From positions 310,001 to 374,000 of the forward strand of contig JACQXA010000004.1 in assembly GCA_016208975.1 (NCBI GenBank): DNA of 64,000 nucleotides, written 5' to 3'. Shown here one piece after another: positions 6,850 to 41,166 of this stretch. Each line of letters starts with the position of its first letter. The stretch's first letter is position 1. The position numbers and the translations under genes are program-made. Origin of the DNA: Nitrospinota bacterium (lineage in GTDB: Bacteria > Nitrospinota_A > UBA7883 > JACRLM01). The notes below the pieces were generated by a model. It ran no database searches. It saw only the letters and a program-made list of their open reading frames with translations, and was not told the DNA's origin.

Positions 6850-7001
6850 TTTTTTAAACCACTACCAAAGCGGACGAAATACGGACGGCGGAATAAAAAA
6901 CCGCCTGGACGCCCGCGCATACAGCATGCTGGCGCCAAAAACAGGTTATTTTATTTTTCCCGGCGGGGTTCCGCAAGTTTTTTCGCCATAGCCTGAATAA
7001 A

Positions 7002-7099
7002 GGCGCCGGGCTTGCTACGCACATCGAAAGCTCCACTGCCGCTGCTCCCTTCCGGGCCTGACGGGGTTCGCGGGTAACGATTGCGTAGGGCCCGGCGCC
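7002..7099 (-). ncRNA. ffs: Signal recognition particle RNA (4.5S-type)
   Basis: On the minus strand the region contains the diagnostic SRP domain IV loop, GTCAGGCCCGGAAGGGAGCA, flanked by complementary arms. The 10-bp ends GGCGCCGGGC and GCCCGGCGCC (7002-7011 and 7090-7099) close a single long hairpin of about 98 nt. This is the small bacterial SRP RNA that binds Ffh and targets nascent membrane proteins to FtsY. It lies alone in the gap between the ketosynthase and the radical SAM gene. Exact mature ends are inferred from pairing. Confidence 0.93.
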
Positions 7100-7269: not shown

Positions 7270-8583
7270 ATGGGAAATGAGTACCGCCAGGCCCCCTGGC
7301 TAATTACGGAAAAAGACCCGGCGAGGAAAGACCATTTCCTGGTCCACAATAACCTGACCGGCAGGACATTCCGCCTGCAAAAGAAGCTTGCGGGCCAACC
7401 CATAGGCAAAGGCGTGGACGGCCGGTGGCTCAATTTCCTTGTGGCCGAAAAGCTTGTGGTAAAGCAGGAAGACATAGAGCCCACCCTGGACGAATACCTG
7501 AGATACTGCATGTATGGGCACCCCACCAACGAGTCGCAGGTGGTTTTCCTGCCCACCTATTCATGCCAGTTCGCCTGCACATACTGTTATAACGACCAGG
7601 TGCGCGCCCAGAACATGGAGAAGAAAAGGCTTGCCCCGGAGAAAATAGCCAAAAAGATGGCCGACCACCTGGAGTCCTCGCCGGGACAAACCTGGAAATT
7701 GCTGGTGACCGGCGGAGGGGAGCCTTTCCTTGTGGCCGACTACCTTTACAAAATAGCCTCGCTGTTAAAAAGCGCCGCCAGAAAGAACGGGCGGGAATTC
7801 ACTTTCCAGATCATCACCAACGGGCAGGCCGCCACCAGGGATAAAGTTGAAAAGCTCATGAAGGCTGGGCTGGCGGGCCTCCAGATAACCATAGACCCGG
7901 AGCACGACAAAACCCGCCCCATGAAAGGCGGCAAACCGTCGTTGAGCCAGGTGCTGGCGAATATAAAAGCGCTACCGCCCCAAATAAGGCTGACGTTGAC
8001 CACCAACATCCACGCCGGTGAAGAGGAAGAATACCGGAAAATGTTGAAAATGCTACTTCCGTTGCGGGAGCGGTTCGCCAGTACTTCAGTGACTCCGATA
8101 ATGGACAGGGTTCCAACGTTGAGTCCAGAGGAAGAGGGAAAAATCAGCCGTCTGAACACGAAAAAGACCTTGGCCACTTTAGTGAAATGTTTCGACGCCA
8201 TTGATGAGCTCGGTTACATGCGGAAGCTTGCGTTCCCACGCATCGTTTGTGAGGCTTTCATCATGTGCGAAGAGCTTATGATGAACTTCGCCGGAGAAAC
8301 CACATTTTGCGCCGCGCTCGACAGCCTGCCTCAATACCGGTGTGACGCGAAATCAGAAGAGGCTAAAGATAAATTCGAGCTTAGGATAGCCAACCAGGGG
8401 TGGAAACAGCATTGTTTCAAGGAGGGCGAGCCTTGCGCCTTCGCGCCCTCCTGCTGGGGCGGTTGCAGGATGATAAGCGTAACCCAGGGGAAAAATTGGG
8501 ACACCATCAATTGCGAAAAACCGATGTTCGATGAGATGGCCCGGTATGAGCTGAGGCGTTGGGCCGAGGTTTGGTCCATGTAA
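7270..8583 (+). CDS. Radical SAM protein with SPASM-like C-terminal cysteines
   Basis: A 437-residue radical SAM enzyme. C99-x3-C103-x2-C106 (S-C-Q-F-A-C-T-Y-C) binds the SAM-cleaving [4Fe-4S] cluster and is followed by a G-G-G-E-P motif. The last 60 residues hold several cysteines (H-C-F-K, E-P-C-A-F, S-C-W-G-G-C, N-C-E-K), the layout of a SPASM or twitch auxiliary-cluster domain. The ATG follows GAGGGA with a 3-bp gap. SPASM enzymes commonly modify peptides, but some act on other substrates. Divergent placement beside an ACP/CrtI/ketosynthase locus is reminiscent of ladderane candidate clusters, which include radical SAM proteins. Its substrate cannot be assigned. Confidence 0.8.
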   Translation: MGNEYRQAPWLITEKDPARKDHFLVHNNLTGRTFRLQKKLAGQPIGKGVDGRWLNFLVAEKLVVKQEDIEPTLDEYLRYCMYGHPTNESQVVFLPTYSCQFACTYCYNDQVRAQNMEKKRLAPEKIAKKMADHLESSPGQTWKLLVTGGGEPFLVADYLYKIASLLKSAARKNGREFTFQIITNGQAATRDKVEKLMKAGLAGLQITIDPEHDKTRPMKGGKPSLSQVLANIKALPPQIRLTLTTNIHAGEEEEYRKMLKMLLPLRERFASTSVTPIMDRVPTLSPEEEGKISRLNTKKTLATLVKCFDAIDELGYMRKLAFPRIVCEAFIMCEELMMNFAGETTFCAALDSLPQYRCDAKSEEAKDKFELRIANQGWKQHCFKEGEPCAFAPSCWGGCRMISVTQGKNWDTINCEKPMFDEMARYELRRWAEVWSM

Positions 8584-8762
8584 CGCGCCCGGCCGTAACA
8601 TGCCTGTTTTTCTTTAAGGCTCTGGTACAACACGTCATTACCTGTTGGTTTTTAATACATTACCGGGCATCCGCCTTATTTAAGCCCTGTCATCTTTGTG
8701 ACATTCCGTGATATAAAAGTAGCCTACACAAGAAATTATTTTCATCCAGTGAGGGGATGGTT

Positions 8763-10607
8763 ATGAAAAAGATTTTTTTCGCCATTGTTGTGTCCGCCAT
8801 TTGCTCAGCTACTTCAGCGCCCGCCCAGGAGGCGCAACCTGAACAAGCCGTTTCCATCGAGCCTGTGGTGATAAGCGCCAGCCGGTGGGAAGAGCGTTTA
8901 AGCAACCAGCCCGACCGGGTGACTATTGTGGTACAAGAAGAGATCCAGTCGCTCCCGGCCAGGGACGCGGCGGAGTCTTTGGTGACCATGCCCGGCGTGA
9001 CGGTGGATTCCAACATCGGCGCCAACTCTTTCGCCTATCCCCTGGTTCAGGGCACGAGGGATTACGAGACCCCGGTGTTCATAAACGGCATTCCGCTGAC
9101 CGACCTGGAGAATGGCATCGGCAACATAGGCATGATCCCCGCCGAGCAGATAGACAGGATAGAAGTGGTGCACGGCCCGGCCGGGTCTGAATGGGGTTCG
9201 GCCATGGGCGGCATTGTGAACGTTATCACCCACAAGTCCGACCGGAAACGTAACGGCTATGTGAAGGCTGGCGGTGGCGACCATGGAACCGGTTTCGCCG
9301 CGGCCAACCTTGATTATTTCAACGACGCCATAGCCCTCTCGGTAGGAGGCGGCACGCGCAACCAGACCGGGCTGGAGGGGGACAAACGGGTCATCCACAA
9401 CAATAACGGCGTGGCCAGTTTTGAGGCGGACCTCGGCGGGCTAGCCACCATTTTCGCCCAGGCTTACACTTTCCAGGTTGAAGCTGGCAGTGGCGAGTAC
9501 AGGGATTTCCTTGCCGGATACTACGATAACTACAAGCAGAGGACCTCCGGCGGCGGCGCCACCCTTACGGCCAACGCCGGGCCCGGCGCGTTCAAGATTA
9601 CGGCTTACGGCCAGAACTCGGCCAAAAACGTTGACCAATACCTGGTGGACTTTGGCCAGTATGGTTCGCTTTCATCCAAAGAAAACGTATATGGAGGCTC
9701 CGGCATCTGGCGCGGAGTGTTCGACGCCACAACAGTTACGGTGGGCGCCGAGGCCAAGAACGGCGCCCTTAACGATGAAGTCGCCAACAAAGAGTACAAC
9801 ATAGACACCAGCGGCGTGTTCGGCTCCGTCCAGCAGAATCTTGACAATATTATTTTGCAGGCCGGAGCGCGGTACAGTAACGAGGAGACGTTTGGCACGT
9901 TCACGGGCCTTAACGCCGGTGTCCTTTACAGGTTCAATACTGCTCCAGTCACCTTGCGCGCCACCATCTCTAATGGATATACCGTTCCCCCTCTTGGTTA
10001 CCGGTACAATGAAGCGGGCGGGCTCATTAAACCCAATCCGGACCTTGGGGTGGAAAAGGTGTTATCTTACCAGGCCGGGGTGAACGCAGGGCTTGGCGGC
10101 GGACTGACATTGGACGCCAGCGCGTTCTTCTCCACGATTAAAGACGCTATCAACTTCGTGGCCAACGAAGACGGCACGGTTATGTATGACAACTTCGAGG
10201 AGTACGACCGCAAAGGGCTTGAGGCCCAGCTGAAATGGGTTTCCGGCGACTTCAACCTGCTGGCCAACACCCTCCAGCAGGAGATAAAGGACGTCACCAC
10301 AGGCCAGGTGGTTAAAGACAAGGCCCGGGCCACCTACACCCTGGGCGGCGGCTACGATAACGGCCGGGTGATGGGCAACATTACGGCCACTTACTACGAC
10401 ATGAACATGTCCGAAGATTTTGGCGGTAAAGACAAGACCTGGACGCTCAACGCCAAGACAGGTTATACCTATCCATTGGGCGGGGGTAAAGTTATCCGCC
10501 TCTCGGTGGGCGCGTACAACCTTACGGACGCGGAAACTTTCGCGCACAAGGCGTTGCCCCTGAGCGCCCAGCGCCAGATAGAAGGGTCGCTGGAATACCT
10601 GTTCTAG
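8763..10607 (+). CDS. TonB-dependent outer membrane receptor (BtuB/FepA type)
   Basis: A 614-residue outer-membrane receptor. The ATG at 8763 is 6 bp after GAGGGG; the ATG at 8757 abuts that site and is less likely. A signal peptide (about residues 1-22) precedes the TonB-box/plug region, which includes V-V-I-S-A-S-R and the plug signature R-I-E-V-V-H-G-P-A-G-S. The remainder is a beta-barrel ending in a C-terminal Phe (E-Y-L-F), as needed for BAM recognition. Such receptors import siderophores, cobalamin or other scarce solutes. No riboswitch or Fur box is recognisable upstream, so the ligand is open. A terminator follows directly. Confidence 0.88.
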   Translation: MKKIFFAIVVSAICSATSAPAQEAQPEQAVSIEPVVISASRWEERLSNQPDRVTIVVQEEIQSLPARDAAESLVTMPGVTVDSNIGANSFAYPLVQGTRDYETPVFINGIPLTDLENGIGNIGMIPAEQIDRIEVVHGPAGSEWGSAMGGIVNVITHKSDRKRNGYVKAGGGDHGTGFAAANLDYFNDAIALSVGGGTRNQTGLEGDKRVIHNNNGVASFEADLGGLATIFAQAYTFQVEAGSGEYRDFLAGYYDNYKQRTSGGGATLTANAGPGAFKITAYGQNSAKNVDQYLVDFGQYGSLSSKENVYGGSGIWRGVFDATTVTVGAEAKNGALNDEVANKEYNIDTSGVFGSVQQNLDNIILQAGARYSNEETFGTFTGLNAGVLYRFNTAPVTLRATISNGYTVPPLGYRYNEAGGLIKPNPDLGVEKVLSYQAGVNAGLGGGLTLDASAFFSTIKDAINFVANEDGTVMYDNFEEYDRKGLEAQLKWVSGDFNLLANTLQQEIKDVTTGQVVKDKARATYTLGGGYDNGRVMGNITATYYDMNMSEDFGGKDKTWTLNAKTGYTYPLGGGKVIRLSVGAYNLTDAETFAHKALPLSAQRQIEGSLEYLF

Positions 10608-31151: not shown

Positions 31152-31790
31152 TCAGGTCTCCTTGATGAAATAACGGGCGGCCTTGAACAGTATGTGGTAG
31201 GCCGAGGCGTAGCTTTTTTCATCCCCGCCGCCGGTTACAATGGCCAGGATCATCTCCCTAAAACAGGCCAGCGCCTCGGCGAGCTCGTCAACCCTTATGA
31301 CGTTCACCTCGCCATACATGCGCTGGTACTGCTTTTTATCGAACCCGAAGGTCTGCGCCAGCTTGGCTATCTTCTCGTTTTCCATGGGGGCCAGAAGCAC
31401 CGGCCCTAAAAATATGTCGCCCAGGTATTCGCCATCCAGGAAAATGGGGCTCACGGCGGTGGACAGGTCTATGTCGCACCGGCTTATCATCACCCCGGCC
31501 AACCCCCCTTCGTTGCTCAGCCCCGACACCTCTTTGCAGGTCAGGTCCGACATGGGGCATTCCTTGTGGTGATGGACACAGATACTTTTTATCCCCTCGG
31601 CCACCAGGATGTCCCCGGAACGGCGGTCTATCACATCCACCATCAATCCTGTCACCTGGCAGAAATCGTTGAGCATCCGCGACAGCCTGTTGATGTCCAC
31701 ATAATCTGAAAGCTCACGTCTGACGCAGGTCCGGGCCCCGGCCTCAAAACCTTCGTGCCGGAAAGCATGGCTTATTACCGCTGTTTTCAT
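31152..31790 (-). CDS. PocR-type sensory domain protein
   Basis: A 212-residue stand-alone protein matching the PocR ligand-sensor fold (related to PAS/GAF). It contains D-I-N-R-L-S-R-M-L-N-D-F-C-Q-V-T-G-L, then G-D-I-L-V-A and a Cys/His-rich patch (S-I-C-V-H-H-H-K-E-C-P-M-S-D-L-T-C), and G-E-Y-L-G-D-I-F-L-G. PocR domains usually sit at the N-terminus of AraC regulators or kinases; a free one is less usual. It lies 89 bp upstream of the diguanylate cyclase and may supply its input. The cysteines and histidines could bind a metal. Confidence 0.75.
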   Translation of the reverse strand: MKTAVISHAFRHEGFEAGARTCVRRELSDYVDINRLSRMLNDFCQVTGLMVDVIDRRSGDILVAEGIKSICVHHHKECPMSDLTCKEVSGLSNEGGLAGVMISRCDIDLSTAVSPIFLDGEYLGDIFLGPVLLAPMENEKIAKLAQTFGFDKKQYQRMYGEVNVIRVDELAEALACFREMILAIVTGGGDEKSYASAYHILFKAARYFIKET

Positions 31791-31854: not shown

Positions 31855-32103
31855 CTACACTGATGAGGTCATCCGTTTATCTTCGTGATATATGGAGCCG
31901 CTTCTTCTTATGGACTTGTCCAACTGGCGCGCCACACCCTCCAACTCCTCCACATCCAGGCTGGCTAACGCCGCGATCTCTCTGGAGGTAAAAGAAAAAC
32001 CCAAGTCCACGGCGGCCCTGTTCAGCGAATCCTTCGCCCTCAGCCTGAATTCCTCGTCGGTTATTATCCGCCCGAGGAAATGTTCCACCGATTCCTGGCT
32101 CAT
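31855..32103 (-). CDS. Small Franean1_4349-like protein (possible RiPP-precursor family)
   Basis: An 82-residue protein from the ATG at 32103, 11 bp after GGAG. The frame is open to a GTG at 32226, but that part is the structured leader. The sequence V-E-H-F-L-G-R-I-I-T-D-E-E-F-R, then S-R-E-I-A-A-L-A-S-L-D and L-E-G-V-A-R-Q-L-D matches the helical leader-like domain of the Franean1_4349/Os-type RiPP-precursor families. No Cys, and few residues typical of a modified core, are found at the C-terminus (H-E-D-K-R-M-T-S-S-V). It may therefore be a regulatory relative rather than a precursor. Confidence 0.55.
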   Translation of the reverse strand: MSQESVEHFLGRIITDEEFRLRAKDSLNRAAVDLGFSFTSREIAALASLDVEELEGVARQLDKSIRRSGSIYHEDKRMTSSV

Positions 32104-32143
32104 GACCGTTATCACTCCTAATTCATCCTTAACGAGTCCCTTC

Positions 32144-32213
32144 GCCCGGGTATCGCCGCCCCCTCTTTCCCGGCATGCCACCCAAGTGGCGATGCCCCGG
32201 CGATTACCCAGGC
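32144..32213 (-). ncRNA. Highly structured 5' leader, candidate cis-regulatory RNA
   Basis: On the minus strand GCCTGGGT-A-ATCGCC (32199-32213) pairs with GGCGATACCCGGGC (32144-32157) as a 14-bp stem with one bulged A. Inside lies a second long hairpin (CCGG-GGCAT-GCCAC / GTGGC-ATGCC-GG, 32170-32200) and an unpaired purine-rich strand, GGAAAGAGGGG. It ends about 40 nt before the ATG of the small protein at 32103. The fold is far stronger than expected by chance. It matches no riboswitch consensus that I can recall (not GEMM-I/II, cobalamin, glycine or guanidine). Confidence 0.5.
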
Positions 32214-32370
32214 TCCAGGCTCTCACCCTTGTCTAATTAGCAATTACTTTGCCAAAGCATATAAGCCTATTTAATCAAGTAGTTATATTAATTCATGTAC
32301 GTAAAAAGTGTGTTGTAAAAACACACGTGTGGCTTTTTACGACAAAGGTTTTGTGGGGAAATACAACAGG

Positions 32371-33786
32371 TTACGAGGTGCGGCGGTAGAAGATGCCTCT
32401 ATCCACCTTCAATAATTCGGCGGCGCGGGACTTGTTATTCCCGCATTTTGTAAGAGTTTCCAACAGTACATTGTTGATGATGGAGTCCAGCGAGATATTT
32501 TCTTTGGGGATTGACAGGTTCAGCCGGAAAACGCCATCCTCCGCGCCGGGGACATGCGATGTCCCCGGGTTGCCCATCCCCTGCGATTCATTGATGATCA
32601 GGTGTTCGGGCTGGATCAGCTCGTCATCGGTGAGTATCGCCGCCCGTTCAACGCAATTTCGAAGCTCCCGGATGTTGCCAGGCCAGGGGTAATGGACCAT
32701 AAGCTCCATGGCGTTTTCCGATATGCCAGGCAAGACTTTGCCAAACTGCGACCGGAACTGGTCCAGGAAATGATGGCACAACGCCGGGATGTCTTCCTGC
32801 CTCTCCCGCAACGGGGGCAGGTGTATGGGGAACGTGTTCACCCGGTGGAACAGGTCTTCCCGGAAATCTCCGGTCCTGCTCAACTCTTGCAGGTTGCGGT
32901 TTGTGGCCACTATCAGCCGGAACTCCGCCTTGATGGGTTTGTTGGAGCCAAGCCTTTCATAGGTGCGCTCCTGAAGGGTACGCAGGAGCTTCGCCTGCAG
33001 GTCCAGCGGCATGTCGCCTATCTCGTCCAGCAGAAGGGTTCCGTTACGCGCCGCGTCAAACTTGCCGGGCCTGTCGCGGTCGGCCCCGGTGAACGCCCCC
33101 TTGGCGTGGCCGAACAGCTCGCTTTCCAGCAGGTTGGCGGGGATACCGGCGCAGTTCACGGCCACGAAATTGTTTTCCACCGTTTCCCCCGCCGAGTGGA
33201 TGGCCCGGGCCAGCACCTCTTTGCCCACGCCGCTTTCCCCGTAAATGGCCACGGTTACCGCCGGGGTTTTGGCCACCCGTTCGGCCAGCCGCAGTGCCTC
33301 CATCATGGCCGGGGCGTTGGTGATGATGTTCTGGAAGCTGAACTTGTCCATTAACTGGCTTTTCAGCTTTTTGTTCTGCTCCGAAAGCTTGAAATGGCTC
33401 AGGGAGCGCTGGATGGTGGTAAGCACCCTTTGAGGGTCGCACGGCTTCTGGATATAGTCGTAGGCGCCGTATCTCATGCAGGCCACGGCGTTGTCCACAC
33501 TCGCGTATCCGGTGAGGATAATGAACGGCACGTCGCCGAACCGCTCCCGCACCTGCTGGAGAAGCTCGAGCCCGGTCATGTTGGGCATCATGTAGTCGGC
33601 CAGCACCACGTCTATCTTCAGCTTGCCCAGCATGTCCATGGCCTGGGCGCCTGTGGGGGCGGTGAGGCATTCCAGCCCGCTCTTTTTCATCACCTCCGAG
33701 AAGACGCTGAGGATTATCTCGTCATCGTCCACAATCAGGGCGGTGGCGCCAGCCACAAGGTCATCGCCGCCAACTCCAAACCCCAT
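32371..33786 (-). CDS. Sigma-54-dependent response regulator (NtrC family)
   Basis: A 471-residue protein. The receiver (residues 14-125) has phosphoacceptor Asp64. The AAA+ domain has Walker A G-E-S-G-V-G-K-E (183-190), G-A-F-T-G-A (230-235, sigma-54 contact) and Walker B L-L-L-D-E-I-G-D. The C-terminal Fis-type helix-turn-helix ([19 protein letters not shown]) ends the protein. It can activate RpoN promoters such as that at 26514. Its kinase is not adjacent on the same strand; an orphan kinase lies divergently at 34257, beyond a MITE. Confidence 0.92.
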
Positions 33787-34256: not shown

Positions 34257-36086
34257 GTGAAGTTCACCTGGAGCGTGGGTAGGATCGTCCTTACCCCGGA
34301 ATTCATTAAAACCTACTCCCTCATGGCCTTTGCCGTAATCTTGATAAGCCTTTTCACCCTTAGCGCCGCCGTTTACTCTTACGAAACCGAGATTACAGAC
34401 CGGGCGCAGGCGGGGCACGACGGGATGGCCCACCGTCTCACAAAGGAAATGTCGCTTTACTTCGAGGAGGCCGCGTTCCAGCTTCAACTTGTGGCCGACA
34501 ATATGGATATCCTCAGCGTCACCCCCGAAACGGCCAAGCTGGCGCTGGACGCCACCAACGCCGACGCTTTCGATTTCCTGGACATATACCTGTACGACAC
34601 TCAAAAGAACGTGATCACCTCCACCGCGGTGGAGGGCCTTATGGAAACCACGTTAACCGATGACGATAAACTCCTGTTTTTCCCCGTTGTGGAAGATGTT
34701 ACCTTTTCCAAAGTAAAGTTCACCAAAAACAAGGTGCCATACGTTTCCATAGCCGTCCCTTTTTATGACAGGGGCTTGGTGGTGGGTATGCTAATCGGCC
34801 ATTTGAACCTTAAAAGGCTTTGGTGGTGGATAGACGAGGTGAACACCGGCAGGGTTATGCGTCTCACCATTATTCAGCCGAAAACCGGCGTGATAGTGGC
34901 GGACCAGGCCAAAAAGAAGGTAAGCACCACTTACCGCCACTGGCCCCCCAGGGGCAAGTTAAGCAAGGCAAACGCATGGCCCGGAATAATAGTCCACGAC
35001 GGGAGCGGGTTGAAATACCTTACGTACAACAGGACCTTCGGGTTTCCCCTGGTTCTGGCGATAACTACCGATTTAACCGTTTATGAAGCCAACATAGCCT
35101 CCATGCGGATGAACACCGCGGGCATCTGCTTTCTGGCGCTGTTATTATGCCTGCTCGTTACGCTCCGCGTTACCTACAAGCTCATGCGCAACCAGTTGAT
35201 CATGGAAGACGCCATGAGCATGTACGAAAAACACCAGCTGGAGGCGGACGACCCGTCGCTGGAAAAAGCAGGAGGGCTGGTTAAATCTTTCGGCTCCATG
35301 ATCCAGAACGTGGACAAGGAGCGCAGGCAGGAAATTATCCAGGAAAGCCTTTCCAACGTTGGCAGGATGACCTCCATTTTGGCGCACGACCTGCGCCATG
35401 GCCTGCACGTTATACTGAACGTGGTTTACATGATGGACCAGCTGGACGATTCCCTGAAGGGGATAATAGTAAAAACCGTGCACGACCTTACCACCAAAAC
35501 CTCGGACATGATGGACTTCATCCGCGCCAACAAGGTGGATCCGCGCCCAACTTCAGTAGGCTCCGTGGCGCTCCAGGCCATGGAAACCGTGAAATACAGC
35601 GAACGCGCAAAGGACAGGGACATTTCAATTACGGAAGACGGCAACAGCAAAGTTACAATTGTGCTGGACAGGCAAAGGATGATAGCCGCCCTGGCCAACC
35701 TTATGCGCAACTCTGTGGAGGCTGGCGCCAAAAAGGTAACCCTTTCCACAAAACGGATAGGGGATAATATAGAGTTTATAGTGGTGGACGATGGGCCGGG
35801 CATACCGTTGGAGTTGCGGGAAAAGGTTTGGTTGCCGTTTTTCAGCACCAAGTCCAAAGGGTTCGGCATAGGCCTGGCGCTGGTGGAAACCGTGGCCCGC
35901 GCCCACGGCGGCGAGGCGTATATAGAAACAACCGGGGAAAAGGGTACGGACATAAGGATGTTAATGCCCCTGGTTCCGCCTAAATACCATGGCGCGCTTT
36001 ACGAGGTGGACGAGCTTGGCGGCCTTTCCGACGAGGCCAGGCTGATGGTGGAATCTGTGGACACCCGGGGAAAAAACATCCGCTGA
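34257..36086 (+). CDS. Membrane sensor histidine kinase
   Basis: A 609-residue orphan kinase. Membrane helices near residues 20-42 and 283-305 bracket a periplasmic sensor of about 240 residues with double-Cache character. A cytosolic linker leads to a DHp helix with its phosphoacceptor in I-L-A-H-D-L-R-H, and to a complete HATPase (N-L-M-R-N-S-V-E-A, D-D-G-P-G-I-P, G-F-G-I-G-L-A-L). The H-box is not the usual H-E-L-R, so it belongs to a less common HK group. It lies 33 bp before the peptide-binding lipoprotein gene, and the two may be cotranscribed, which suggests detection of a peptide or other solute. Confidence 0.85.
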   Translation: MKFTWSVGRIVLTPEFIKTYSLMAFAVILISLFTLSAAVYSYETEITDRAQAGHDGMAHRLTKEMSLYFEEAAFQLQLVADNMDILSVTPETAKLALDATNADAFDFLDIYLYDTQKNVITSTAVEGLMETTLTDDDKLLFFPVVEDVTFSKVKFTKNKVPYVSIAVPFYDRGLVVGMLIGHLNLKRLWWWIDEVNTGRVMRLTIIQPKTGVIVADQAKKKVSTTYRHWPPRGKLSKANAWPGIIVHDGSGLKYLTYNRTFGFPLVLAITTDLTVYEANIASMRMNTAGICFLALLLCLLVTLRVTYKLMRNQLIMEDAMSMYEKHQLEADDPSLEKAGGLVKSFGSMIQNVDKERRQEIIQESLSNVGRMTSILAHDLRHGLHVILNVVYMMDQLDDSLKGIIVKTVHDLTTKTSDMMDFIRANKVDPRPTSVGSVALQAMETVKYSERAKDRDISITEDGNSKVTIVLDRQRMIAALANLMRNSVEAGAKKVTLSTKRIGDNIEFIVVDDGPGIPLELREKVWLPFFSTKSKGFGIGLALVETVARAHGGEAYIETTGEKGTDIRMLMPLVPPKYHGALYEVDELGGLSDEARLMVESVDTRGKNIR

Positions 36087-36119: not shown

Positions 36120-37733
36120 ATGGAAAAATTAAATAGCTTGTTTAACGCCATTCGGGGCCGTGTCGCCCGGCCATTTGCCGTTTCCACCGGCGCCATAAAG
36201 GCAAAGCTTGTTGCCTTGCTTATGCTTCTACCCCTGGCAACGGCAGGATGTATAGGAGAAACAGTCATCAAGTCAGTGATGAAGAACGATGAGCCGGACA
36301 CTTTCAGGGTGGGGTGGAACGTTGTTGGCCTGGAATTGACAATGCCAAATTTACTTAACCTCATGACAATGGATCAAATATTAAGCTACATGGTTAATTC
36401 TACCATTAAAGATCCTAATTATAAGTTTGATACCATTGTTGAACAATACAAAATGCTTGGTAATGGCAAAAAAATTATTATAAAGCTTAAGGATGACGCG
36501 GCTTTTCATGACCTTACGCCAGTAACCGCCTACAATGTGGCGCGCTCATTTGAATATGAGTCACAAATACAACCGACAAAACCGGAGTTCACTCTTGTTT
36601 TTAAAGCATTAAGCGACAAAGTTATTAGCGTGGAGTCAACCGATCCAATAAATTTATCTAATTTAAGGTTTCATATATTGAACCTGGATGGCTCAAAGCA
36701 AGTTGACATCAACAAATTCGACATTGTCGGCACGGGGCCGTATGAATTTTTATCTTTTGATAAAACAAAAAAAATACTAAGAATGAAAAAATTCCACCGG
36801 CAAACCCTTACTGATAGCATTGATGAGAAATACCTTGAATATTACTTATTTGATGATTATGAAAGCTCCCTGAACGCCTACCTGGAGGGTGTTGTAGATT
36901 ATTTGCTTCTATCCACATTGGAAGACTTGCCTTTTTTGCGGCAGAATCAGAACAATATTTTTGTTGATACCATGACTAATTATCCCACGCTATTGATATT
37001 CAACTCGCGCCATCCATTGTTTAAAGACCAGCGCGTGAGGAAGGCATTTAGCCATTATATTGATAGAAAGGCCCTGGCCAACAGCAAATTCGCCCTTAAT
37101 GGAGACGCCGTGCCCACTTTGGCGCCATTGCACATGTCCAGCCCTAGAACCGAGCCATTTATTGAAGATTACGACCCTGCCAGGGCGGAGCTTTTGTTAA
37201 GCCAGGCTGGCTTCACAAAAACGCCGCGTGGCTTTTGGCTGAAAAATGGCAAAATTTTGACTTTGGAAATATCATTCCCGGAACAGGATTCTTCCGGATT
37301 AAAAGCCATGCGGTTCCTTGCCAAGCATTTTGAGGCAAATGGAGTTAAGTGCAAATTACGGATGATTACCACAGGAAAATATGTCGATATCATTACCAGC
37401 AATGGTGATGATTGGCAGATAATGTATAAAATAATTATCGACAGAAACAATATATATTCTACAAACGATATTTATTCACCTAACAACGGCGAGAGTATTA
37501 TAAAATGGTTAGACGCCAAATCGCAAAACAAATTTGGAAGTCTTTATGATAATTACTTGCTAAATAGGGATGACGCCGCATTGAAGAGCGGGTTGCAAAA
37601 GTTGATTCTGGAAGAAGCCCCTTGCGCCGCCATGTTCTATACAAAAGATTTTGGGATATTAAGAAGTGATTTCCGGTATTGGGGCGAAAAGATTTCCAGG
37701 GATATTTACGGTCTATATTATCTGGACAGGTAA
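36120..37733 (+). CDS. Family 5 extracellular solute-binding lipoprotein (peptide/nickel type)
   Basis: A 537-residue protein with a long N-terminal basic segment, a hydrophobic helix and the lipobox L-A-T-A-G-C (Cys near residue 41). The body is a DppA/OppA-like fold with D-A-A-F-H-D near residue 123, then A-Y-N-V-A-R-S-F and R-V-R-K-A-F-S-H-Y-I-D-R. No permease or ATPase genes accompany it, so it is an orphan binding protein, perhaps a signalling partner of the kinase upstream. From about 36300 the gene is clearly more AT-rich than its surroundings and uses many A/T-ending codons, a sign of acquisition from elsewhere. Confidence 0.83.
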   Translation: MEKLNSLFNAIRGRVARPFAVSTGAIKAKLVALLMLLPLATAGCIGETVIKSVMKNDEPDTFRVGWNVVGLELTMPNLLNLMTMDQILSYMVNSTIKDPNYKFDTIVEQYKMLGNGKKIIIKLKDDAAFHDLTPVTAYNVARSFEYESQIQPTKPEFTLVFKALSDKVISVESTDPINLSNLRFHILNLDGSKQVDINKFDIVGTGPYEFLSFDKTKKILRMKKFHRQTLTDSIDEKYLEYYLFDDYESSLNAYLEGVVDYLLLSTLEDLPFLRQNQNNIFVDTMTNYPTLLIFNSRHPLFKDQRVRKAFSHYIDRKALANSKFALNGDAVPTLAPLHMSSPRTEPFIEDYDPARAELLLSQAGFTKTPRGFWLKNGKILTLEISFPEQDSSGLKAMRFLAKHFEANGVKCKLRMITTGKYVDIITSNGDDWQIMYKIIIDRNNIYSTNDIYSPNNGESIIKWLDAKSQNKFGSLYDNYLLNRDDAALKSGLQKLILEEAPCAAMFYTKDFGILRSDFRYWGEKISRDIYGLYYLDR

Positions 37734-37738
37734 TCTTA

Positions 37739-38312
37739 ATTGCTTCGCCAGGAACATTATATGCTTCGCCAGGGTCGCCTTATATTGCTTCGCCGGGGTC
37801 GCCTGACCCCGGTCTTCTTCAAGGAACCCGTGGTCGCCTTATAAGCGCTTCACCGGGGTCGCCTGACCCCGGTCTTCTTCAGGAACCCGTGGTCGCCTTA
37901 TAAGCGCTTCGCCGGGGTCGCCTGACCCCGGTCTTCTCCGCTCCGCTCAGGAACCCGTGGCCTGGCGACCACGGGGAAGCGGTGGAATAGGTCGCCCCCA
38001 TATGCTTCGCCGGGGTTGCCCCTATGCTTCACCGAGGTCGCCTGACCTCGGTTCCTACATCATCCGCTTTTCGCTTCACCGGGGTCGCCTGACCCCGGTC
38101 TTCTCCGCTCCGCTCAGGAAAACCCGTGGTCGGGCGACCACGGGGAAGCGATCACAAAACACCAACGGGGAAGCGCTCTAATGGTAACCACGGGGAAGCA
38201 GTGGAAAGGGGCCGCCCACATATCCGCTTCGCCGGGATCGCCCCCTATGCTTCACCGGGGTCGCCTGACCCCGGTCTTTTATCGCTTCACCGGGGTCGCC
38301 TGACCCCGGTTC
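37739..38312. repeat. REP palindrome array, left of the RAYT gene
   Basis: Seven complete REP units of the form GCTTC-[A/G]CCGNGGTC-GCCT-GACCNCGGT (the first at 37787-37813), two reverse-oriented units ending GGGGAAGC (near 37957 and 38125), and several half-units that stop after GGTCGCCT or GGTTGCCCCT. Stems differ in compensated pairs (GGGG/CCCC, GAGG/CCTC, GTGG/CCAC). Spacers such as CTTCTTCAAGGAA and CTCCGCTCCGCTCAGGAA recur between units. The last unit abuts the stop codon of the RAYT gene. Confidence 0.9.
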
Positions 38313-38834
38313 CTAGTCCCATGGTGTCCAGGGGCTCACCACCTCCACCGGTAACGGGCCGCTCTGTCCTAAATAATCCCGGGCGCTTGACCAGGCAAAG
38401 TTCTCCGGCCTGTCGCAAAGCCGCCACTTCTTCGCAAGAGGGTTATTATGTATATATTCCAGCTTTTGTTTTAAAAACTCCCACGATATTAGTTTTTTGG
38501 GAGAGTGGGTTTTTTGCCATATCTGGATTTTCCTGTCCCGCTTCTCCACCGTGAACCGGCTTAATAAAGGGTCATTGTCACGATTTAGGGTTTCGATTAT
38601 TTTCTTGGCTGTGTATTTATGGAAATCTCTTAGAAAATCCGCCAATACGTTACCTTCATTTATAGTTATTATCATGTGGATGTGGTTTGGCATGATTACA
38701 TAGCCGTTTATTTTAATTTTGCCTTGTTGCGCCCTGGTAGATAGCGATTCAAGTATTATCCCGGCCATTTCCTTGCGGTGGAAAAGATGCGCCCATTGGT
38801 TGATAGTGGAGGTGATGAAATAAGCTTGGCGCAT
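38313..38834 (-). CDS. REP-associated tyrosine transposase (RAYT, Y1-Tnp/IS200-like)
   Basis: A 173-residue HUH nuclease domain from the ATG at 38834 (M-R-Q-A-Y-F-I-T). The HUH motif is H51-I-H53 in M-P-N-H-I-H-M-I, and the candidate catalytic tyrosine is Tyr74 in F-H-K-Y-T-A-K-K. The frame is open another 47 codons upstream through REP sequence, which is not likely to be coding. Both flanks carry REP palindromes with a fixed GCTTC tag, the substrate type of RAYTs, which cut and move REPs. The gene looks intact, so the array may still be mobile. Confidence 0.88.
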   Translation of the reverse strand: MRQAYFITSTINQWAHLFHRKEMAGIILESLSTRAQQGKIKINGYVIMPNHIHMIITINEGNVLADFLRDFHKYTAKKIIETLNRDNDPLLSRFTVEKRDRKIQIWQKTHSPKKLISWEFLKQKLEYIHNNPLAKKWRLCDRPENFAWSSARDYLGQSGPLPVEVVSPWTPWD

Positions 38835-38861
38835 GAATCTATGATACGACAAATCAGGAAC

Positions 38862-39092
38862 CCGGGGTCGCCTTATATGCTTCACCGAGGTCGCCTGACC
38901 TCGGTCTTCTCCACTCCGCTCAGGAACCCGTGGTCGGGCGACCACGGGGAAGCGGGGGGAAGGGGCCGCCCCCATATGCGCTTCTATGCTTCAACCGAAG
39001 TCGCCTTAAATGCGCTTCACCGAGGTCGCCTGACCTCGGTCTTCTCCACTCCGCTCAGGAATCCGTGGTCGGGCGACCACGGGGAAGCAATC
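38862..39092. repeat. REP palindrome array, right of the RAYT gene
   Basis: Two complete CCGAGG-type units (around 38879 and 39018), each followed by CTTCTCCACTCCGCTCAGGAA and a reverse-oriented CCGTGG-type unit ending GGGGAAGC. This makes two tandem BIME-like blocks. An additional degenerate half-unit with an extra A (CTTCAACCGAAGTCGCC) lies between them. Confidence 0.88.
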
Positions 39093-39100
39093 GTAAAACA

Positions 39101-39154
39101 ACCACGGGGTAGCGATCAAACAACAAGCCACCGGGACGCCAAAGCGCCCCGGCG
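39101..39154. repeat. 54-bp 3' module, copy 1 (after peptide gene A)
   Basis: Near-identical (53 of 54 bases by eye) to 39477-39530. It contains the hairpin CCGGGACGC-CAAA-GCGCCCCGG. It lies 13 bp downstream of the stop codon of the GCC-core peptide gene at 39168-39260. On the peptide strand the hairpin is followed by TGGCTTGTTGTTTGAT, so it could act as a weak terminator or RNA end. Confidence 0.8.
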
Positions 39155-39167
39155 TACGATGAACAAA

Positions 39168-39260
39168 CTAGGCAATTCTGGCTACAGTCCCACCACAGCA
39201 ACCAGCGGGCTCAACGAAACCTCTAAGTTCCTTTTTCTTCGCGGCTTTGGTCTTTTTCAT
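39168..39260 (-). CDS. GCC-core peptide A (30 residues)
   Basis: ATG at 39260, 7 bp after AGGAG, to TAG at 39168. A very basic N-terminus (M-K-K-T-K-A-A-K-K-K) is followed by E-L-R-G-F-V-E-P-A and the 11-residue C-terminal core G-C-C-G-G-T-V-A-R-I-A. The same L-R-G-F-V-E-P segment occurs in peptide B and the same core pattern in peptides B and C, with synonymous codon differences at the Gly and Cys codons. This is selection at the protein level. It could be a ribosomally made, modified peptide precursor (leader plus core) or a metal/thiol-binding peptide. I do not recognise a family. Confidence 0.7.
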   Translation of the reverse strand: MKKTKAAKKKELRGFVEPAGCCGGTVARIA

Positions 39261-39307
39261 AATGTCTCTCCTGTATGATTGAACATTAGTCTTGGGGTTG
39301 TCCCCAT

Positions 39308-39470
39308 ATGCTTCACCGAGGTCGCCTGACCTCGGGCCTTCTTCATATGCTTCACCGGGGTGGCCCCATATTGCTTCACCGGGGTCGCCTGACCCCGGTC
39401 TTCTTCAAGGAACCCGTGGTCGGGCGACCACGGGGAAGCAATCGTAAAACACCAACGGGGAAGCGCTCTA
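39308..39470. repeat. REP palindromes between peptide genes A and C
   Basis: Two complete GCTTCACC-type units (at about 39310 and 39366), a truncated unit between them (CTTCACCGGGGTGGCCCC), and one reverse-oriented CCGTGG unit ending GGGGAAGC near 39440. The following stretch (AATCGTAAAACACCAACGGG onward) repeats sequence seen at 38150-38200. Confidence 0.85.
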
Positions 39471-39476
39471 ATGGTA

Positions 39477-39530
39477 ACCACGGGGTAGCTATCAAACAAC
39501 AAGCCACCGGGACGCCAAAGCGCCCCGGCG
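39477..39530. repeat. 54-bp 3' module, copy 2 (after peptide gene C)
   Basis: Second copy of the module at 39101-39154, differing at one visible base. It lies 10 bp downstream of the stop codon of the 53-residue GCC-core peptide gene. Its hairpin is CCGGGACGC-CAAA-GCGCCCCGG. Confidence 0.8.
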
Positions 39531-39540
39531 CTTGCAACAA

Positions 39541-39702
39541 CTAGACTACTTTCGTAACTGCGCCAGAACAACAGCCTATGGCTGAGGCCTTTGATGTGGC
39601 CCTTATTGTCTTTTTAGCGGCGGTTTTCTTTGCTGGTTTCTTGGACGCGGATTTCTTTGCGGTGGCGGATTTTTTGGACGCGGATTTCTTTTTTGTAGCC
39701 AT
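39541..39702 (-). CDS. GCC-core peptide C (53 residues)
   Basis: ATG at 39702, 6 bp after AAGGGG, to TAG at 39541. The first 31 residues are a Lys/Ala/Ser-rich, histone H1-like run made of repeats of K-K-S-A-S-K-K. Then comes a short linker (T-I-R-A-T-S-K-A-S-A-I) and the core G-C-C-S-G-A-V-T-K-V-V. The core aligns without gaps to those of peptides A and B, while the leader is unrelated in length. The opposite strand is also open here, but only because of the Lys-rich repeats. No modifying enzyme is adjacent. Confidence 0.7.
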   Translation of the reverse strand: MATKKKSASKKSATAKKSASKKPAKKTAAKKTIRATSKASAIGCCSGAVTKVV

Positions 39703-39835
39703 GAGAAGCCCCTTAAAGTTGGTATTAATAGACCAGAAGAACAGCCCACTCTTTTATATTCACTGAGGGGTTTCGCAACCCCGCAGTATTTGCCCTAACA
39801 CCAGGGTTATTAAAACCCAAGTGATTGATGGTAAT

Positions 39836-39940
39836 TTAGACCAGCTTCAAGGACGCACCACTACAGCACCCCAACGGCTCAACAAAACCCCTGAGCTGTT
39901 TCTTGTTGTTTATGCGGGCGCTGATTTTCTTGGTCTTCAT
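39836..39940 (-). CDS. GCC-core peptide B (34 residues)
   Basis: ATG at 39940, 12 bp after AAGGA, to TAA at 39836. A basic leader (M-K-T-K-K-I-S-A-R-I-N-N-K-K) is followed by Q-L-R-G-F-V-E-P-L and the core G-C-C-S-G-A-S-L-K-L-V. It is the most upstream of the three peptide genes, 133 bp before peptide C. It lacks the 54-bp 3' module. A hairpin (ACTG-GGGGTT / AACCCC-CAGT, 39762-39787) lies downstream. The spacing of its ribosome-binding site is long, so expression may be weaker. Confidence 0.68.
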   Translation of the reverse strand: MKTKKISARINNKKQLRGFVEPLGCCSGASLKLV

Positions 39941-40018
39941 GATTACATAGTTCCTTACAAAGTACGTTTACACTAATCACCGTGTTGGCCCTTGCCAGCC
40001 GGCGATATAAAAAACATT

Positions 40019-40380
40019 CACCAGTCCGTGGTCAGCGACCACGGGGAAGCAATCATAAAACGACCACGGGGAAGTGTTCAAAATGCGACCCGGTGGAAGC
40101 ATTTTAGATGCTTCGACAAGCTCAGCATGACACGTTATTGCCGCACCGCACTTTTCAGGCGGAGTCTGCCGAAGCCCTACCAAGAGCGCCGCAACCCACA
40201 TGGTTCGACAGGCTCAGCATGACACGTTAATGTCAGCCCGATCGCGCCGAGGGGCGCTTCGCCGAGATTCCCTGACCCCGCCCGGTCTTTTATCGCTTCG
40301 CCGTGGTCGCCCTTTTTGCTTCGCCGTGGTCGCCCTTTTTGCTTCGCCGTGGTCGCCTGACCTCGGTATATCCATCATTC
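40019..40380. repeat. Mixed repeats: REP units and a 26-bp direct repeat
   Basis: It contains a reverse REP (CCGTGGTCAGCGACCACGG-GGAAGC, near 40025) and a 26-bp motif, TTCGACA[A/G]GCTCAGCATGAC followed by ACGTTA, at 40112-40137 and 40204-40229. It ends with three consecutive half-REPs (GCTTCGCCGTGGTCGCC) at about 40299-40362. No gene is visible. Confidence 0.75.
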
Positions 40381-41166
40381 GCGGGCAACCTCAGGGGGTT
40401 GCCCCTACAATACGCACAGGGCTACCCGTGCAACTTTTCAACGGGGGATTTACCGCTTTGTTTTGCCCGGTTGCCTAATGGCGTTTTAAAACCCGCGCCG
40501 GGATTTAACAACACCAGCGCCAATTTAAAAACACCCGCGTAAGCTTAGGGCTTTCGCCCTTACGCCCGCCGCGCCGAAACAAAACAAAACAAACGCGATT
40601 GGATTAGGACGCAGTTAAACGGCTATGCTCCCCCAAAAACCGGCACCAGCGTGTTGCGCTGGTAACCAGCCTCTACGCCATTTATTACTTGACATTAATT
40701 TTTATCATTTTACCGGCAAGTAAATCAACAAATTTTTTATAGAAATTTTACATTATTTATACCAGTTACAATAATATATATGGCCATACCATTAATATTG
40801 TCAAAATATCCCTACAAATGGTATTCCCCAATAAAAGTGGTGGATTATATCCATCTAAACCTTGGCTAAACCAACGCCATGTTTTGTGAAACGAATATAG
40901 GCAAACGCCATAATGATGTAATGCAACATGGCAGTTATTTCCAGGAGCGGTGGTCGGGCGACCACGGGGAAGCAATCAAAAAAAACACCACGGGGAAGCA
41001 AATTTCAACTTTATCCTCCACGCCCGGCCCAGCGGGTTACCCCCTCCCGCCTCCGGCGGACTCCCCCTTGGCAAGGGGGAGAAAGTAATAGCGAGCCATC
41101 ACCCGCCACCAACACCCGCCATCAACACCGCGCCGCCATCGGGCCGTTTTGATGTAAAATGTTTTC
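40381..41166. other. Non-coding stretch before nfeD
   Basis: No convincing gene. A GC-neutral part (40381-40680) contains short inverted repeats, for example ACCAGCG/CGCTGGT near 40645. An AT-rich part (40680-40900) holds no ORF with a ribosome-binding site. A reverse REP follows at about 40949-40973. A GC-rich intergenic repeat-like segment (CTCCGGCGGACTCCCCCTTG) is near 41050. TAAAAT near 41155, just before the nfeD ATG, is a possible -10. Confidence 0.6.

Follow-up and report, generated by a model that had tools for sequence, protein, structure and literature searches.

The closest described relatives of the locus presented here are the radical SAM (rSAM) maturases of TIGR04280 and the peptides of TIGR04229, the 'geopeptide' family. 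The term 'geopeptide' was not found in the literature searched, and we know of no geopeptide product. The rSAM-SPASM enzyme SbtM is reported to make a thio(seleno)oxazole from Cys/Sec (PMC11002830), and peptides bearing 5-thiooxazoles bind copper (PMC12668002, PMC12538549). Cu-methanobactin enters the cell via the TonB receptor MbnT and binds the OppA/AppA-like periplasmic protein MbnE (PMC7558416).

We analysed a 64,000-nucleotide stretch of the genome of a marine Nitrospinota bacterium (the window; contig JACQXA010000004.1 of assembly GCA_016208975.1, positions 310,001 to 374,000), which contains three short genes for Cys-Cys peptides, together with genes for an rSAM/SPASM enzyme, a TonB receptor, a solute-binding protein (SBP), and a sensor kinase (Table 1). 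Judged by sequence, the best reading of the window peptides is a divergent branch of the geopeptide kind, already named and matched here below the cut-offs of both families. By its description, the SbtM system is similar in that an rSAM-SPASM enzyme acts on a Cys/Sec peptide; however, SbtM precursors contain Sec (PMC11002830), whereas no convincing Sec version (Cys-TGA) of the peptides was found near the maturases studied here. Methanobactin uptake (MbnA, MbnT, and MbnE) likewise combines a Cys peptide, a TonB receptor, and an OppA/AppA-type binding protein (PMC3621798, PMC7558416), but methanobactin is made by MbnB/MbnC instead of an rSAM enzyme, and its core and leader differ. Captophorins, bufferins, and bulbicupramide are Cys-derived metal-binding RiPPs (PMC12668002, PMC12538549), a property that is predicted in the present case; those peptides utilize MNIO chemistry, and bulbicupramide has repeated Cys cores.

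Table 1. Positions of the peptide genes, partner genes, and hairpins in the window.
Feature	Position	Strand	Basis
Candidate radical SAM/SPASM maturase, 437 aa, CX3CX2C and SPASM-type cysteines	7270..8583	+	Best NCBIfam match TIGR04280, 135.6 bits against a cut-off of 400
TonB-dependent outer-membrane receptor, BtuB-like plug	8757..10607	+	43% identity to the receptor of the G003 cluster
Sensor histidine kinase, dCache-like sensor, directly 5' of the SBP gene	34257..36086	+	Domain scan and G003 homology
Extracellular solute-binding protein family 5 (SBP_bac_5)	36120..37733	+	PF00496, E = 3.5e-37; homologues adjoin Cys-Cys peptides in G003, G008, and G004
Terminator-like hairpin, 13 nt past the stop of the 30-aa gene, identical to that at 39505..39530	39129..39154	-	Consensus match only
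Putative Cys-Cys precursor peptide, leader type A, 30 aa, MKKTKAAKKKELRGFVEPAGCCGGTVARIA	39168..39260	-	Translation and homology search
Terminator-like hairpin, 10 nt past the stop of the 53-aa gene	39505..39530	-	Consensus match only
Putative Cys-Cys precursor peptide, long K/A/S/T leader, provisionally type B, 53 aa, core GCCSGAVTKVV	39541..39702	-	Single-query search weak; core alone in common
Putative Cys-Cys precursor peptide, leader type A, 34 aa, MKTKKISARINNKKQLRGFVEPLGCCSGASLKLV	39836..39940	-	Translation and homology search

The Cys-Cys peptides and their partner genes

The three peptide ORFs all start with ATG on the minus strand, and each closes with a core of G-C-C-x-G plus six residues followed by the stop codon; the aligned GCC[GS]G endings given in the initial annotation are exactly as it described them. 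A genome-wide search with the 34-residue peptide returned the 30-residue peptide (E = 1.2e-5) and a fourth copy that had not been noticed before, MKGKKKIVTKKLLRGFLPEPMGCCGGAQARFV (G000:C4:570508-570606, E = 2.4e-4), so that chance does not account for the family. This fourth copy is situated 221 kb from the window trio, where it adjoins dinB, the gene for DinB, without a maturase. The 53-residue peptide matched the same query weakly (E = 0.89), with the core as the sole shared part. Among 38 GCCxG-type DNA matches in the same genome, 30 were inspected, and the only Lys-rich short genes of this type were the four known members. Codons differ at 4/9 to 6/8 of the identical residues between these copies (6/8 between the 34- and 53-residue peptides, and likewise 6/8 between the 34-residue peptide and the distant copy), which bears out the earlier claim that the core is conserved at the protein level. 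Ribosome-binding sites had been assigned to all three genes; the Shine-Dalgarno-like sites of the 30-residue (AGGAG) and 53-residue (AAGGGG) peptides are strong, but that of the 34-residue peptide is weaker and more distant. Searches of the peptides against Pfam, PHROGs, and NCBIfam gave nothing useful except a weak geopeptide match.

The peptide genes sit within a 3-kb intergenic stretch rich in REP-like palindromes, which are dense at 37757-40980 (13-14 copies of GCTTCRCCGGGGTCGCCTGACCCCG and relatives) and surround an IS200/Y1-transposase (RAYT-like) gene at 38313-38975 (-). The 11-bp stem of the hairpins is the same in both and belongs to a downstream block repeated behind the genes of the 53- and 30-residue peptides. 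The REP/RAYT array may have caused the splitting of the cluster and the duplication of the peptides. We rejected the idea that the peptides are mere translated REP repeats: the palindromes flank the peptides with none inside, and the peptides of relatives occupy a syntenic place.

In the window the gene set is interrupted by a 24-kb gap (10.6 to 34.3 kb): the rSAM and TonB receptor genes lie on one side, at 7.3-10.6 kb, and the kinase, SBP, and peptide genes on the other, at 34-40 kb. A co-occurring maturase, protease, or exporter had been proposed as a check on the peptides; the maturase is present in the same window, ~31 kb from the peptides, but no exporter or leader protease linked to the peptides or the maturase was found there. 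The enzyme has the CX3CX2C motif and the SPASM-type auxiliary cysteines of a SPASM-domain rSAM protein. In five aligned enzymes, C99/C103/C106 and the series C327-X14-GX4-C347, C382, C389, C399, and C415 are invariant, and the auxiliary spacing is C382-X6-C389 compared with the usual CX2C. The AlphaFold2 model of the maturase is poor (pLDDT 52), with values <50 across most of the N-terminus, where a PqqD-like RRE region was sought; that of the SBP is also poor (pLDDT 39). No close relative of the maturase was found among viral contigs and plasmids. A bacterial small SRP RNA lies just upstream of the maturase gene, at 7001-7097 (-).

Synteny and co-occurrence in Nitrospinota

The genome that carries the window (G000) was compared within a sample of 24 Nitrospinota genomes, 12 of which belong to its own order. 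A scan of named contigs gave only two Nitrospinota relatives with the same maturase, Nitrospinaceae OFTM379 (G003) and 8_1_May_SF_Bin17 (G011), although its exact patterns would miss diverged ones. A profile of our four peptides matched G003 weakly (E = 0.004). The matched peptide belongs to a Lys-rich Cys-Cys pair that directly follows an SBP_bac_5 gene, and the nearer member of this pair starts 290 nt from a divergent rSAM/SPASM gene. An extended profile, built from the G000, G003, and G008 copies and re-finding these, gave independent matches in G007 (E = 0.0017) and at a pair in G004 (E = 0.011 and 0.12) that synteny confirmed; weak matches in G010, G012, G014, G016, G018, G020, and G021 were taken as noise. 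In total, 11 precursors with a Lys-rich leader and a Cys-Cys core are present in five genomes, so the homologues that had been sought in relatives exist in four other Nitrospinota genomes. The G007 peptide (L117:6511-6630, MSARKKEKKKIIKRKRLFAVNSKDPDPTEGCCDFGPLRF) is isolated, with no maturase nearby, like our own fourth copy (L003).

A peptide pair is located between the SBP_bac_5 and rSAM/SPASM genes in three genomes (G003, G008, and G004), and this SBP-peptides-rSAM arrangement is shared by three families within the taxonomic order. The full arrangement in G008 and G004 is TonB(-), kinase(+) SBP(+), peptides(-), rSAM(+); G003 shows the same order with an extra SBP gene between the TonB receptor and the kinase. 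Two clusters are broken in the draft genomes; in G004 the contig end cuts the rSAM gene, with an rSAM beginning at the end of C317 and an rSAM fragment opening C32. The maturase is adjacent to a precursor in all three genomes, contig-cut in G004, and 31 kb from it in the window. In the window, G003, G008, and G004, the SBP gene has a kinase gene as its partner, with a dCache-like sensor where scanned. Between the window and the G003 cluster, the identities are 44% for the rSAM enzyme, 43% for the TonB receptor, 32% for the kinase, and 26% for the SBP. The leader/core layout of a RiPP, one of two readings that the initial annotation had proposed from the peptides by themselves, is well supported: in other Nitrospinota families, genes for such peptides stand in synteny with those for an rSAM/SPASM maturase, a TonB receptor, an SBP, and a kinase. 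Directly 3' of the G003 maturase lies an ABC-2 permease gene (PF06182, L050:12124-12927), a candidate exporter that is not conserved in G008.

The maturase occurs in 6/24 Nitrospinota genomes, and the TonB-receptor subfamily in the same six plus G007, with none in the other 17. The hypergeometric probability of this co-occurrence (6/6 within 7/24) is 5e-5, and it is 0.008 when only the 12 genomes of the order are considered, with genomes counted as independent. At a strict cut-off, the SBP subfamily was restricted to G000, G003, G007, and G008 among the 24. No rSAM gene was found in the draft genome G007, though the Cys-Cys peptide, SBP, and receptor are present. In G001, from the family of the window genome, the TonB receptor gene is immediately followed by the gene of a maturase that has diverged strongly (29% identity; L063:438-3706), and the profile search found no Cys-Cys peptide in this genome; its maturase possibly acts on a different core.

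The precursors bear two types of leaders on one core, a point that, like the maturase in the window, the initial annotation had missed. Type A leaders possess an RG motif, then a hydrophobic residue, and a Pro ahead of the core, and type B leaders, in G003, G004, G007, and G008, have a basic stretch with L-F; the 53-residue peptide of the window has the features of neither and is labelled 'B' purely by exclusion from A. After the Cys-Cys, the cores of A and B peptides agree at 62% of positions within a genome and at ~16% between genomes (label shuffle, p = 4e-4), and the leader-type statistic gives p = 0.0065, which is partly circular, the labels having been set after the sequences were seen. 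The match between A and B cores, accompanied by synonymous change in G003, G004, and the window, makes selection on the protein likely, while in G008 the DNA of the cores hardly differs, and recent gene conversion is likely there. Two leaders with near-identical cores within one genome are unusual, the reverse of the constant leader and variable core of most RiPPs.

Relation to geopeptide loci

TIGR04280 is the best-scoring family for the Nitrospinota maturases (E down to 2.7e-44, the next family no better than 6e-31), with scores of 135.6, 151.8, and 135.7 bits that fall short of its cut-off of 400 bits. On the peptide side, one G003 peptide matches TIGR04229 across the Cys-Cys (E = 0.0057) with 16.5 bits, the best score obtained and below the cut-off of 30 bits. 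Peptides beside over-cut-off maturases in G287, G331, and G308 also score below the TIGR04229 cut-off, and genome searches with this model are uninformative, giving sub-cut-off matches in 11/14 control genomes as well.

Maturases above the TIGR04280 cut-off are present in 101 of 141 genomes searched in the order of G331. Thirty such loci were fetched: a Cys-Cys peptide, for example MEIEVLNQGVEECQIVAGCCTGGANSARK, lies upstream on the same strand in 27 (opposite-strand control, 4/30), and a TonB receptor lies within the 1.5-kb flank, also in 27/30. We infer from these loci that the hallmark of the kind is a Cys-Cys peptide beside an rSAM enzyme and a TonB receptor, and the Nitrospinota loci show the same association. 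In both, the gene of a short peptide whose Cys-Cys lies near the C-terminus is found beside an rSAM/SPASM gene, usually with a TonB receptor. The two branches differ in several respects. The Nitrospinota enzymes are only ~25% identical to geopeptide maturases; the Nitrospinota leaders are Lys-rich with LRGF..P or KK.LF, whereas geopeptides typically have LEEG/LDEG; and the Nitrospinota precursors are paired and scattered. A periplasmic binding protein accompanies both branches in the loci examined, but the families differ: SBP_bac_5 with a dCache kinase in Nitrospinota, and ABC_sub_bind in the wider loci of G287 and G331, with a kinase also in G287. The initial annotation regarded the peptides as an apparently undescribed family. 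This is only half right: the Nitrospinota branch scores far below both cut-offs, with leaders and a gene set of its own, but TIGR04280 and TIGR04229 had names before, and the Cys-Cys tag is found in bona fide loci as well.

Four loci (L067-L070, in G151, G038, G185, and G201) contain TIGR04280-like enzymes of 239-282 bits, and no Cys-Cys peptide is evident within their 1.5-kb flanks; these enzymes perhaps serve other peptide classes.

Proposed maturation and function

The occurrence of the same peptides beside an rSAM enzyme and an uptake receptor in relatives makes them most likely the raw material of a modified peptide that is re-imported or sensed, perhaps with a metal bound. In the proposed mechanism, the Lys-rich N-terminal part would be the leader and the last ~11 residues, with the Cys-Cys, the core, both in the three ORFs and in the fourth copy. 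The maturase would bind the leader and oxidatively modify the Cys-Cys core, possibly into a thiooxazole, as SbtM does with Cys/Sec, or into a thioether. The modified product would then be exported to capture a small extracellular ligand, a soft metal or some other, and re-enter in its loaded form through the TonB receptor, after which the periplasmic family-5 SBP would bind it and the adjacent dCache kinase would report it to the cell.

Judging from gene content and order, the peptides are very probably RiPP precursors of the window maturase. Their product is likely a re-uptake or sensing ligand for the TonB receptor and SBP, and the reading as a whole, geopeptide-type precursors that are matured by the rSAM enzyme, re-imported, and sensed, seems on balance the right one. 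That the product is a metallophore in particular is close to an even call, leaning slightly against. The receptor and SBP_bac_5 resemble methanobactin uptake, which makes a thiol metallophore the likeliest function and a sensed pheromone its main rival. MbnE (5ICQ) was absent from the best 60 of 69 PDB matches and from the 15 for the window SBP alone, and no DUF692/MNIO protein of the MbnB/MbnC type was matched among the neighbour genes scanned. The nearest families of the SBP are nickel, peptide, and opine binders, with sub-cut-off scores, and its nearest solved relatives among the matches listed are generic peptide/nickel/opine binders. The cargo of these TonB-receptor and SBP families also includes cobalamin, nickel, or peptides; hence, metal binding is here proposed by analogy.

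The pairing of kinase with SBP in the window and three relatives would also suit exported pheromones, by which the TonB receptor, SBP, and kinase would sense self-density or kin with the core as the address, and cores alike within a genome and unlike between genomes are expected of a self-recognised ligand. We consider this unlikely: a TonB receptor would be unusual for a pheromone, the Cys-Cys, being invariant, suggests thiol chemistry, and a metallophore with a cognate receptor, or plain gene conversion, gives the same pattern of cores. Less probable still is that the peptides remain unmodified and serve in cytoplasmic metal binding or redox buffering, the rSAM/receptor neighbourhood being incidental; short basic Cys-Cys peptides could act unaided, the maturase of the window lies away from the peptides, and there is none with the fourth copy beside DinB, but the SBP-peptides-rSAM order in three families and the pairing of Cys-Cys peptide and maturase in 27/30 geopeptide loci are hard to call incidental. 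A bacteriocin-like weapon or siderophore mimic, entering competitors via their TonB receptor as antibacterial peptides commonly do, would fit the species-specific cores but is highly improbable, since the producer's own cluster keeps the cognate receptor and SBP, and the G003 and G008 clusters hold no conserved immunity gene or dedicated exporter.

The favoured reading, that of a re-imported modified peptide, extends the geopeptide kind to Nitrospinota, known for nitrite oxidation in the ocean and, to our knowledge, with no peptide metallophore described. The pairing of Cys-Cys peptide and TonB receptor offers this orphan kind a testable function, that of a re-imported thiol ligand with a metallophore as its likeliest form. 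A single kind of TonB-linked rSAM Cys-Cys metallophore, re-imported and spanning Nitrospinota and the geopeptide-bearing order, is a more tentative and rather doubtful extension; if true, geopeptides and the Lys-leader branch would be one kind of re-imported thiol metallophore, and two leaders would deliver one species-specific core in Nitrospinota.

In addition, the window encodes a short protein at 31855-32226 (-), flanked by a PocR-domain protein (31152-31790) and a sigma-54 response regulator (32371-33786). Read from a start at 32103, it matches NF038399 (Os1348 family NHLP clan) with 61.8 bits against a cut-off of 40, and Nif11-like leaders matched weakly; it is possibly a second RiPP-type or regulatory element.
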